Position numbers and translations under genes: made by a program
The notes under the pieces: generated by a model
Told to the model about the DNA's origin: nothing
What the model saw: the letters and a program-made list of their open reading frames with translations, nothing else
Database searches by the model: none
Part shown: piece after piece, positions 31,545 to 58,151 of the stretch
Layout: every line of letters starts with the position of its first letter
Numbering within the stretch: position 1 is the first letter of the stretch
Source of the DNA: Apostichopus japonicus
Lineage: Eukaryota > Echinodermata > Holothuroidea > Aspidochirotida > Stichopodidae
NCBI RefSeq assembly: GCF_037975245.1
Contig: NC_092569.1
Location: forward strand, 839,001 to 903,000
Direction of reading: 5' to 3'
DNA: 64,000 bases

Positions 31545-34500
31545 ATGATCTTCATTAAAGGTGAACATCTTCACAGTGTGTGTAGTAGTAGTTCCACGAG
31601 ATTGTATATCTTCTTCGGGTTCGTATTATCTTTCATCCGTACTACGTATGGCGATTGCCTTCCTCCTCCGACATATGTTAACGCTTATCGCTTGCTTAAT
31701 GATGACTTCTCTGTGGGTTCGTCTATGGTTTATTTTTGCCAGTCTGGATACGTAATGGCAGGGAATGCCGACAGTGTCTTGCTTATCTGCAGTTCAGATG
31801 AAGTATGGATTGGTCCTAGTATCGATTGCTCCAAAAGTAAGGATCTATATTTATTTATCTTCCTTATAATACTAGAAATAATTTAGAAAAGACGAAACAT
31901 CCTTTAGTTTACGCCACACAGGCTCTGACCATTTTTAACAGGTTATGTTGCATTTATAATAACTTCCGAAAAGGATTATACGATTATGATAAATTTGGCA
32001 GACTAAGCGTATACCAGTAGAAATATGTATGAAAATACCGAATCACTGAAATACAGGCAACCTATAGAGTATCTATTCTCAATTATGAACATGGTTGAAT
32101 TTCCAACACAACGTCTCGTAAGGTACAGTAAAACTTAAGGTAAACCACGAGATTAATTGGGTACCATGGCAACAAAGATTTTGAAATATCGATACAATCT
32201 ACCATGGCAATGTCACCACTTTAGCCGGGACGTATTAACCTCATTTATAACGGAAGTATAAATAAGTCCTAATTATCCTAATTATGTATTACATAAAAGC
32301 CAATGTTCAGTTTATGCAAAAAATGTTTGGTTCTATTTAAATTTGTAAAAGATAGGTTGTGAATTCATGAAAATACTAGATTAAGAATTAATTTGTTGGT
32401 TGTTTATACTTGCCCATGTGAATGTTGTATATGTACATCTGTTGATCATTTGCAAAGTTAAAACAGGGTAAAATTGTAAGAGAATACGGTACGTCTGCTT
32501 AAAATAATATAAAGTTGTTGTAACATCAAAAACAGTTTACAATTTTTCTAAATATTTTTGTAAATGTTATATTATAGAAATATCGTGTTCCTTGCCAACA
32601 TCTCCTGCGTATGGAAGCTTTAGTGTAACTGATCCTACGTACAGCTTTCAAAGCAGTGCAAAATTCGAATGCGAGTCTGGATATCTTCCAGACGGATCTA
32701 CCAAAGTCGAGTGTTCTAGTAACGGCCAGTGGACAGAAAATAACAACGCTATTGACGAACCCATTTGCAAAAGTATGTCATAATTTCAATTGATGAATAT
32801 TCAAAGATAATATGAAATAAGATCTTTATCAATCACTGCCAATCTACGATGAAACTAAATCTATAGAATGCTCATTGAAGGCTAACATGATAATGACGTC
32901 GGCTCCCTCGGTTCACGCCTGATATTAATTCATTGTTAATTAATTAGTTCTAATAACACAAATTAACATGTTCGTTTAGGTGCAGTACCATTATAGGAAC
33001 ATCCAACACATTTGTACTTGACACATTTGAAAGTCTTACGTCTGTCGTTGACGTTTAGTGCTGATTCCAATGAGCTGACTTAATTGTCTGTGCTAGACTA
33101 CGTATCAAAGCCTCAATTACATAATGGAGGTGCCTTGTAATTATCTTGTCACCATCAAAAAATGTTTTTTTTTTATTATCAGAGTCATGTAAAGACGAGA
33201 AAAATCGATATTTGAACCATGAGTGCTACGAGTTGAGTTCCAATACAGGTGACTGGGAGTATGCAAAGTTACAATGTGACTCCAATACAGGGCGATTGGC
33301 GACAATAAAGGACTCGCATAGGCAATCCTTTGTGAAGGACTTACTCATTGGTGCAACCTTCTTAACCTGGATCGGTGGATATGAGCTGGACAGAGATTGG
33401 AAATATCCATCAGGTATGTTACTATGGTAACTGACTGTCTAATTAGTGAGAACGATTGACAAATTTTATTTGTGTTTTATTTCGCGCTATGCAGCTAAAA
33501 GTATACATTTTACGTGTCTAAATGGACTAGATTCGTACAACCTGTTTTCGACTGTGACGTGATAAATATCGTAAATGATATGAAGGTGTATGAAATCACA
33601 AGCAATGACGCTGCCAGACACCTACGAAGGAAAAACATATCACTCAAAATGTGTTGAAAGCTATGTGCGAAAACAAGATTGGTCAGAAGGTGTACCCATT
33701 GAACCATTCGCCACCATTTTTATGTCATAGTATAGTACAGTATATAGTACAGGGTTGTCCAACCTACGGCCCGCGGGCCACAGTCCGGACCCGCCGCAGG
33801 GTTGCGTCCGGCCCGCCAGAGATGCTCTACGGTGCGAAATTTTAGTGAGCAGATTTATTGATAACCATTTGAAGCTATATAATCAATCATTCGAACCTTC
33901 TGGGTCCAAAAAACTGCATACAGGTCAGTTTGTGACACTCTCAGCGGAGGGGGGGGGGGGCTGAACTTTAGGCCTATGCATCTGTATTATCAGGAAGGAA
34001 AATAAATCAGTGCGCTCCGCGCATTGCTCACATTTTGTTGCCTTGTGCTTCGGGCAAAAAAATCGAAAAATCGAGCGTAGGGTTCATGCGGCCCCCTCCT
34101 TCATCATAATCATTCCATGTGGCCCTCCTGTGCAAAAGGTTGGACAACCCTGATATAGTATATAGTTAAGTATATTATAGTACAGTGCATTACAGAGCAG
34201 TGCAGTACAGAACAGCACAGTACAATAAAGTACAGCACAGTACAGTTCAGTACAGCACAGTACGGTGCAGTACAGTACAGCACAGTGCAGTACAGTGTAG
34301 TAAAGTATATACCTTAAAATACCTCTTCCATTTTACCTAATCTATACTTGATATAACCCGGCAGGTATTCATGAGCATCACAAAAACAGGCTTTCCGTTG
34401 TCTTCCTAACCCTTGGAAATTAATAAACTACACTAAAACTATGTAAAATTAACAGAACTATAATTTATCTGATAAAAACGTACTAAAACGAAACAAAATG

Positions 34501-57700: not shown

Positions 57701-58151
57701 GTCGTAATCACAAACTTGCATTACAGAGTAATAACAATATATATTACCGACCGATAGTTTCATGCAAAGTACCGTTAGCCACCATCATCTATTATAAAAT
57801 GTTTCAACGTCTTAGCCAAGTGATTAGGTTTGTTTGTAAGAATAATGACTTTTCAAGGCATTGAAAGATGTTCGTATAATTTCTGAAGTTTTATGGAACA
57901 TGTTCATAAATTTACAAAAAAAAATAATTGAGATTAAACTCCTATGAGCAATGATCAATCTAATGTGAAACAATTTTGACTTTTCGCTAAACTGCTCTTA
58001 CAGCTTTGATTTGGAGACGAATGAGGATAATGGTTTCATGCACCCAAATCCGGCCTACGAAGATTTAGCTACTATAAATTCAAGAGAACCAAAGAAACCC
58101 GCAGAAAACATTTACCAGGCAAACGATGATAAACCAATCATAAATTATTAA
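45714..58151 (+). CDS. Sushi/C-type lectin/mucin type I membrane receptor, copy 2
   Basis: Eleven exons: 45714-45987, 47952-48146, 49915-50145, 50985-51167, 51935-52201, 52634-52774, 55175-55363, 55917-56099, 56549-57106, 57396-57495 and 58004-58151, coding for 822 residues. An in-frame ATG at 45669 would add 15. The order matches copy 1: leader ([16 protein letters not shown]), CCP, CCP, lectin domain 1 (EPS, WND), lectin domain 2 ([10 protein letters not shown] and WND), CCP, CCP, a 186-residue Ser/Thr stalk, membrane helix ([20 protein letters not shown]) and a 49-residue tail. Exons 2, 3, 4, 5 and 7 have the same length as in copy 1 and all phases agree, so the pair arose by tandem duplication. 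The tail differs: it holds NPAYEDL, combining an NPxY and a YxxL signal, and a second Tyr in ENIYQAN. These suit adaptor binding, endocytosis or kinase signalling, which is inferred. A LINE, an hAT element and a SINE occupy its introns. Confidence 0.92.
46195..46425 (-). mobile_element. tRNA-derived SINE
   Basis: On the minus strand, GGTAGGTTCGAGTCATAGCC matches a pol III B box. It is followed by TAGGCACTGACTCTCCATTG and CCAGGTGTATAAATGAGG, a body seen in many deuterostome tRNA-derived SINEs. The exact ends were not determined. It lies in intron 1 of receptor gene 2. Confidence 0.65.
48362..49490 (+). mobile_element. 5'-truncated LINE (non-LTR retrotransposon), reverse transcriptase C-terminal part
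   Basis: The reading frame from 48368 has [13 protein letters not shown], then the catalytic FADDTNLFF box, [16 protein letters not shown] and [12 protein letters not shown], and a C-terminal [13 protein letters not shown]...LLPVTF region that ends at TAG, 49265-49267. This layout fits a Jockey/CR1-like clade; the exact clade is uncertain. One in-frame TGA (48611-48613) is the only interruption in 300 codons, so the copy is young. The 5' parts (endonuclease, fingers) are missing, which is usual 5' truncation. The 3' tail contains a stem-loop (GGGAGTCTCC with GGAGACTTCC) and ends near a short AAATAAATGAAT repeat. It sits in the intron between CCP2 and lectin domain 1 of receptor gene 2. Confidence 0.9.
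50191..50294. repeat. (AT)n microsatellite
   Basis: An AT tract begins about 45 bases after a lectin exon donor of receptor gene 2. Confidence 0.97.
53537..54302 (+). mobile_element. Truncated Penelope-like element with 188-bp direct repeats
   Basis: Two 188-base direct repeats (53537-53724 and 54115-54302, only a few differences) flank about 390 bases. The interior has a frame containing [20 protein letters not shown], which resembles the NLRDLLVRA-type stretch before the GIY-YIG endonuclease of Penelope-like elements. The reverse transcriptase core and endonuclease domain are absent. Repeated ends in this arrangement are the pseudo-LTRs known for this class. The insertion is nested in hAT copy 2. 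Confidence 0.7.
54064..54121 (+). ncRNA. Candidate hammerhead ribozyme motif of a Penelope-like element
   Basis: CTGATGA (54072-54078), a GCTC/GAGC stem, GAAA (54105-54108), a minimal ACC/GGT stem III, and TC followed by TAGT reproduce the hammerhead core order. ACTA upstream pairs with TAGT downstream as stem I. The predicted cut after 54114 falls exactly where the second 188-base direct repeat begins. An A/A mismatch closes stem II, so activity is uncertain. Minimal stem III hammerheads are known from Penelope-like elements. Confidence 0.55.

Follow-up and report, generated by a model that had tools for sequence, protein, structure and literature searches.

Lectin domain shuffling is common among invertebrates. 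The mannose receptor family (MRC1, MRC2, PLA2R, LY75) combines an R-type (Cys-rich) domain and an FN2 domain with 8–10 C-type lectin domains (CTLDs), and Limulus factor C is a secreted protease with LCCL and trypsin domains in which a CTLD has complement control protein (CCP, or Sushi) domains on both sides. In selectins, the CTLD sits at the tip of the protein. Selectins are described as having one CTLD, an EGF domain and then CCPs, and Drosophila furrowed and Tribolium CTL15 as invertebrate transmembrane proteins with a CTLD and many CCPs; CTL15 combines eleven CCPs with a single CTLD and a single factor 5/8 domain (PMC9954269). Group XIV proteins (CD248/endosialin, CD93, CLEC14A and thrombomodulin) are summarised as type I membrane proteins in which one N-terminal CTLD is followed by a sushi domain (except in thrombomodulin) and EGF repeats; they also have a mucin-like stalk and a short tail (PMC6852297). 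Soluble dual-CTLD proteins are reported from fish and invertebrates (PMC514892), in bivalve 'P-selectins' CCPs occur together with CTLD or EGF domains (PMC9484242), and bivalve lectin surveys mention lineage-specific combinations that include sushi domains (PMC10140915). A sea star protein is listed with two CTLDs in a passage that makes no mention of CCPs (PMC5460417). Here, we describe two neighbouring genes, A and B, in a window of 64,000 nucleotides of the sea cucumber Apostichopus japonicus (contig NC_092569.1, called C9 below, positions 839001–903000), which encode predicted membrane receptors with two CTLDs framed by pairs of CCPs.

In window coordinates, gene A spans positions 31545–42770 and gene B positions 45714–58151. 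Each gene is intact and was assembled from 11 exons (Table 1) that together form a single open frame, with 1147 amino acids in A and 822 in B. In both genes, all ten introns have GT donors and AG acceptors, and the intron phases are identical, the first nine introns being in phase 1 and the last in phase 2. The exon joins and N-terminal start codons were inferred from the sequence, and the acceptors of the stalk exons were picked among several candidates within open frames. Intron 2 of gene B also holds a reverse-transcriptase fragment (48329–48610, forward strand; RVT_1, E = 1.9e-7), with a stop further on in its frame.

The initial annotation had read both genes as two CCPs, two CTLDs, two further CCPs, a Ser/Thr-rich stalk, a membrane helix and a tail. 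This order, preceded by a signal peptide, was borne out in both genes by the splice assembly and by Pfam. A domain search of the two spliced products recovered two CCPs, two CTLDs and two CCPs in each, with four Sushi (E = 5.4e-36) and two Lectin_C domains (E = 2.8e-24) in the ectodomain of A, and four Sushi (E = 2.6e-35) and two Lectin_C domains (E = 4.7e-25) in full-length B. Sushi and Lectin_C were the only Pfam families above cut-off in these two queries, in which no EGF family matched at E ≤ 1. A chance domain order is excluded because of these E-values and the presence of a second, diverged copy. The stalks are free of Cys and rich in Ser and Thr, which account for 185 of the 485 residues in A (38%) and 77 of the 186 in B (41%). 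Both proteins have a hydrophobic N-terminal core and, towards the C-terminus, a single strongly hydrophobic segment. The tail of B contains the sequence NPAYEDL, which includes both an NPxY and a YxxPhi pattern. A scan of the tail of A found no NPxY, YxxPhi or immunoreceptor tyrosine-based inhibitory motif (ITIM) pattern, and the ITIM pattern was absent from the tail of B as well.

The ectodomains of A and B are 46% identical. Identity between counterparts was 39%, 35%, 51% and 51% for CCP1 to CCP4, and 53% and 47% for CTLD1 and CTLD2, whereas the cross-comparisons gave 32% (CTLD1 of A with CTLD2 of B) and 33% (CTLD2 of A with CTLD1 of B). By score, every CCP of A was nearest to the CCP at the same position in B; by percent identity, CCP2 of A was equally near to CCP3 and CCP2 of B (35% each). 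Each domain is nearest to its own counterpart, and therefore A and B arose by duplication of one complete gene, after CTLD1 had diverged from CTLD2. The stalk (31%), membrane segment (30%) and tail (24%) are less alike than the head over their aligned residues. In the six head domains, the proportion of non-synonymous differences (pN) was 0.30–0.41 against a proportion of synonymous differences (pS) of 0.63–0.91, with pS saturated in five of the six. At the level of sequence comparison, these proportions demonstrate selective constraint on the head. The predicted products of A and B are membrane-anchored and stalked, and carry a constrained double-lectin head between CCP pairs.

CTLD2 of both copies has E402-P403-N404, E408 and W421-N422-D423 (numbering of A), and CTLD1 of both copies has E253-P254-S255, E259 and W276-N277-D278. 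We take these conserved residues to be the calcium and sugar ligands of the canonical C-type lectin site. CTLD2 of both A and B has the full canonical set of EPN, the following Glu and WND, and is the likelier of the two domains to bind sugar. The EPN motif is given as mannose-specific and QPD as galactose-specific (PMC9954269). In CTLD2 of B, both EPN and WND fell within the alignments to a solved CD209-like (SIGNR1-type) lectin (E = 1e-7) and to solved mannose-receptor-type domains. The top solved relative of CTLD2 of A was LY75 (E = 1.1e-13), with E-selectin at 1.7e-6. For CTLD1 of A, the best-scoring solved relatives were PLA2R (8.4e-19), MRC2 (4.7e-14) and CD23 (2.4e-12), with E-selectin at 9.2e-6.

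The probable targets of these receptors are sugars carried by microbes or other cells. Our first-ranked reading, in which we place middling confidence, is that the paralogues A and B act as type I membrane lectin receptors on coelomocytes and most likely recognise sugar-coated microbes or particles. The retention of EPN, Glu and WND in CTLD2 of both copies supports this reading, as do the domain matches, the alignment of CTLD2 of B with a CD209-like lectin, the stalk composition, the membrane segment and tail motifs, the constraint on the head, and a gene with a fibrinogen C-terminal domain, another immune-type recognition domain, just upstream of A. A soluble C-type lectin of A. japonicus is also described as promoting the migration and the aggregation of coelomocytes (PMC13428168). 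In such a receptor, an O-glycosylated stalk would raise the head off the cell surface, CTLD2 would bind a mannose-type sugar via calcium, and CTLD1, which lacks one of the canonical ligand residues, might add a contact that is weaker or of another kind. The CCP pairs could act as rigid spacers or offer a contact for a protein partner. On a phagocytic cell, the NPAY/YEDL signal in the tail of B might then mediate uptake of bound ligand; A, whose tail differs and whose stalk is longer, might serve as a tether or partner.

Several points weigh against particle recognition. CTLD1 of both copies is non-canonical, with Ser where the canonical Asn is expected (EPS), and the motif rule predicts sugar class only loosely. 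LY75, PLA2R and CD23, which are among the best-scoring solved relatives, have CTLDs that often bind protein or lipid. Unlike many microbe-sensing families, A and B lie outside any large expanded cluster here. Furthermore, since the tail of A lacks NPxY, YxxPhi and ITIM patterns, uptake is argued for B only; the tail motifs of B are not common to its paralogue, and short motifs of this kind can occur by chance.

Ranked second, as a serious but less probable alternative, is adhesion in the manner of selectins or furrowed. The lectin pair would bind glycans of adjacent coelomocytes or of epithelium, with the CCPs providing reach or homophilic contact, and the outcome would be aggregation, rolling or tissue patterning instead of microbe recognition. 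The tall stalk and the CCPs around the lectin part resemble adhesion receptors, and the second CCP of Drosophila furrowed is reported to mediate homophilic adhesion (PMC9954269). Sea cucumber coelomocytes also aggregate, reportedly faster with a C-type lectin (PMC13428168). However, the lectin domains of A and B are not at the tip as in selectins and there is no EGF domain, and for their CTLDs E-selectin falls far behind the best-scoring chains, which are those of the mannose receptor family, of the CLEC4/CD209 type and of CD23. A role as complement-linked receptors, in which the CCP pairs would bind echinoderm C3-type fragments or shield the cell from complement while the lectin domains direct this activity to certain sugars, is improbable. 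Each protein has four CCPs, and sea cucumber is reported to have C3 and factor-B-like genes (PMC13428168, PMC4264123), but CCPs are also common as spacers. Very improbable is that the exons belong to shorter or differently spliced products, such as secreted lectins; the joins rest on sequence and the stalk acceptors on a choice among several within open frames, but the 11 exons with their order, frame and phases are retained in two diverged copies, and the lengths of the four CTLD exon pairs are equal or differ by at most 3 bases.

Genome-wide searches covered 671,581,487 bp in 35 contigs. With CTLD1-CTLD2 of gene A as the query, all 33 of the 33 candidates were scored and 25 matches had E ≤ 1; the eight CTLD exons of A and B filled the first eight places. 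The ninth match had E = 5.9e-4; as nothing beyond A and B scored better, a large expanded family for the CTLD pair was rejected. The CTLD2-CCP3-CCP4 query of gene B gave 117 matches, including CCP-type matches at C9:46673–53894. These belong to a third gene, C, which extends from C9:44450 to about 73900, some 0.8 Mb upstream of A and B.

Gene C has two Sushi domains, a Lectin_C domain split over exons, two further Sushi domains and an EGF_CA domain, all above the Pfam cut-off; the middle CTLD exon was inferred, and the Pfam scan of the EGF array covered the first unit only. A relaxed pattern counted at least 44 EGF repeats, mostly at a spacing of about 340 bp, with gaps at missed units. The EGF exons are near-identical, perhaps reflecting a recently grown array, and a possible membrane or tail exon lies near C9 73600–73900, although it is not established. 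Like A and B, gene C has CCP pairs on both sides of its lectin part, and these CCPs mostly match by position. In contrast to A and B, it has a single CTLD, with QPD and WDD, and its stalk consists of EGF repeats instead of being mucin-like.

By raw score, the CCP at the same position was closest in seven of the eight comparisons of gene C with A and B. The exception was CCP3 of C against A, which scored 85.5 with CCP3 and 91.0 with CCP2. In a tree of the 12 CCPs, positions 1, 2 and 4 grouped across the three genes and CCP3 of A paired with CCP3 of B, with CCP3 of C apart; no fork had full support and the program warned of long branches. The CTLD of gene C was not clearly nearer to CTLD1 or to CTLD2 of A and B. 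We read these relations as descent of A, B and C from one ancestral head with CCP pairs around a CTLD, in which lectin number and stalk have changed. The pair that the initial annotation had proposed as a distinct echinoderm receptor family is real, but the family does not consist of the pair alone, given the one-CTLD head and EGF-repeat stalk of gene C.

In the co-location test, first-look candidates numbered 392 for CTLD and 785 for Sushi, and the best 150 of 151 CTLD matches were used. Among the best 150 matches per search, CTLD and Sushi matches lay within 100 kb of each other only at gene C and at A and B. This is a weak test that does not exclude other genes, since gene B itself, with its domains split between exons, is missing from the listed CTLD matches. 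Clusters of CTLDs of two exons each, partly in adjacent pairs, were seen at C4 0.40–0.61 Mb, C4 8.195–8.245 Mb and C12 21.24–21.27 Mb. Checked over 17 stretches of 10 kb in 7 regions, they matched the CTLD profiles but showed no CCP profile below a domain E of 0.05. They were rejected as family members and are possibly another tandem lectin family. A broader proposal, which we consider unlikely, is an echinoderm and perhaps holothurian-only family in which one conserved sugar-reading head, with one or two CTLDs between CCP pairs, would be combined with exchangeable stalks, either mucin-like or made of a fast-growing EGF array, and with different tails, to form paired activating and tethering receptors by which coelomocytes recognise self or non-self sugars.

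Table 1. Features of the lectin receptor genes A and B and of the adjacent fibrinogen-related gene, in window coordinates.
Feature	Position	Strand	Basis
A exon 1, signal peptide and CCP1	31545..31836	+	splice model, Pfam Sushi, hydrophobic N-terminal core
A exon 2, CCP2	32578..32772	+	splice model, Pfam
A exon 3, CTLD1 first half	33183..33413	+	splice model, Pfam, solved relatives
A exon 4, CTLD1 second half, EPS...E...WND	34622..34804	+	splice model, A/B alignment
A exon 5, CTLD2 first half	35873..36139	+	splice model, Pfam, solved relatives
A exon 6, CTLD2 second half, EPN...E...WND	36789..36932	+	splice model, A/B alignment, solved relatives
A exon 7, CCP3	37558..37746	+	splice model, Pfam
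A exon 8, CCP4	38033..38209	+	splice model, Pfam
A exon 9, Ser/Thr-rich stalk, 485 aa	38705..40159	+	splice model, composition
A exon 10, membrane helix	41278..41371	+	splice model, hydrophobicity
A exon 11, cytoplasmic tail and stop; without NPxY, YxxPhi, ITIM	42554..42770	+	splice model, motif scan
B exon 1, signal peptide and CCP1	45714..45987	+	splice model, Pfam, hydrophobic N-terminal core
B exon 2, CCP2	47952..48146	+	splice model, Pfam
B exon 3, CTLD1 first half	49915..50145	+	splice model, Pfam
B exon 4, CTLD1 second half, EPS...E...WND	50985..51167	+	splice model, A/B alignment, Pfam
B exon 5, CTLD2 first half	51935..52201	+	splice model, Pfam
B exon 6, CTLD2 second half, EPN...E...WND	52634..52774	+	splice model, A/B alignment, solved relatives
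B exon 7, CCP3	55175..55363	+	splice model, Pfam
B exon 8, CCP4	55917..56099	+	splice model, Pfam
B exon 9, Ser/Thr-rich stalk, 186 aa	56549..57106	+	splice model, composition
B exon 10, membrane helix	57396..57495	+	splice model, hydrophobicity
B exon 11, cytoplasmic tail with NPAYEDL and stop	58004..58151	+	splice model, motif scan
Fibrinogen C-terminal domain exons	26251-26805, 27767-28060, 29264-29539	+	Pfam

The fibrinogen-related gene beside the lectin receptors occupies positions 25213–29539 of the window on the forward strand. A Ser/Thr-rich frame (25213–25818, forward strand) lies just upstream of its fibrinogen exons, and an EGF-like stretch in the gene fell 0.2 bits under the Pfam EGF_3 cut-off. 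Elsewhere in the window, two long repetitive open frames (14432–15235 and 18905–20706) are built of CYNELSRIYAMFINQMLICMV and TRTHTVVLVLILLYSYSYC units and are most likely minisatellite DNA. Near-identical peptide frames on opposite strands (22751–23044 and 54582–54923) suggest copies of a dispersed repeat.

The echinoderms, which belong to the deuterostomes, have no lymphocytes, and little is known about how their coelomocytes recognise microbes and each other. A and B offer a constrained membrane lectin pair with a stated sugar motif, a stalk and tails that differ in a possible uptake signal, which makes them directly testable. The relation to gene C indicates changes in lectin number and stalk around a retained head, which bear on how selectins, endosialin and other adhesion and immune lectins were assembled.

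As the initial annotation had supposed, no named family with the domain order of A and B was found in the open-access literature, although subscription papers and unannotated database entries may hold one. Selectins share with A and B the combination of CTLD and CCP modules in a type I membrane protein with a single membrane helix. Membership was rejected, as in A and B one CCP pair comes before the two CTLDs and another after them, the stalk is mucin-like and no EGF family matched at E ≤ 1. Group XIV proteins likewise have CTLD and sushi domains, a mucin-like stalk, a membrane helix and a short tail, but in A and B the CCPs come first, the two CTLDs lie inside two CCP pairs and EGF repeats were not found, so that this family was rejected too. 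Furrowed and CTL15 are transmembrane proteins that combine a CTLD with several CCPs, and were rejected because A and B have two CTLDs, four CCPs and no factor 5/8 domain in the Pfam output. The mannose receptor family, also type I with consecutive CTLDs, is among the best solved relatives of both CTLDs. It was rejected in view of the two CTLDs of A and B and a Pfam output above cut-off of Sushi and Lectin_C only, with neither a ricin-type nor an FN2 domain. Limulus factor C, set side by side by description, resembles A and B in its CTLD framed by CCPs, and was rejected as LCCL and trypsin were not among the Pfam matches of A and B at E ≤ 1. All domains of A and B are familiar from these systems; the novelty is in their arrangement.

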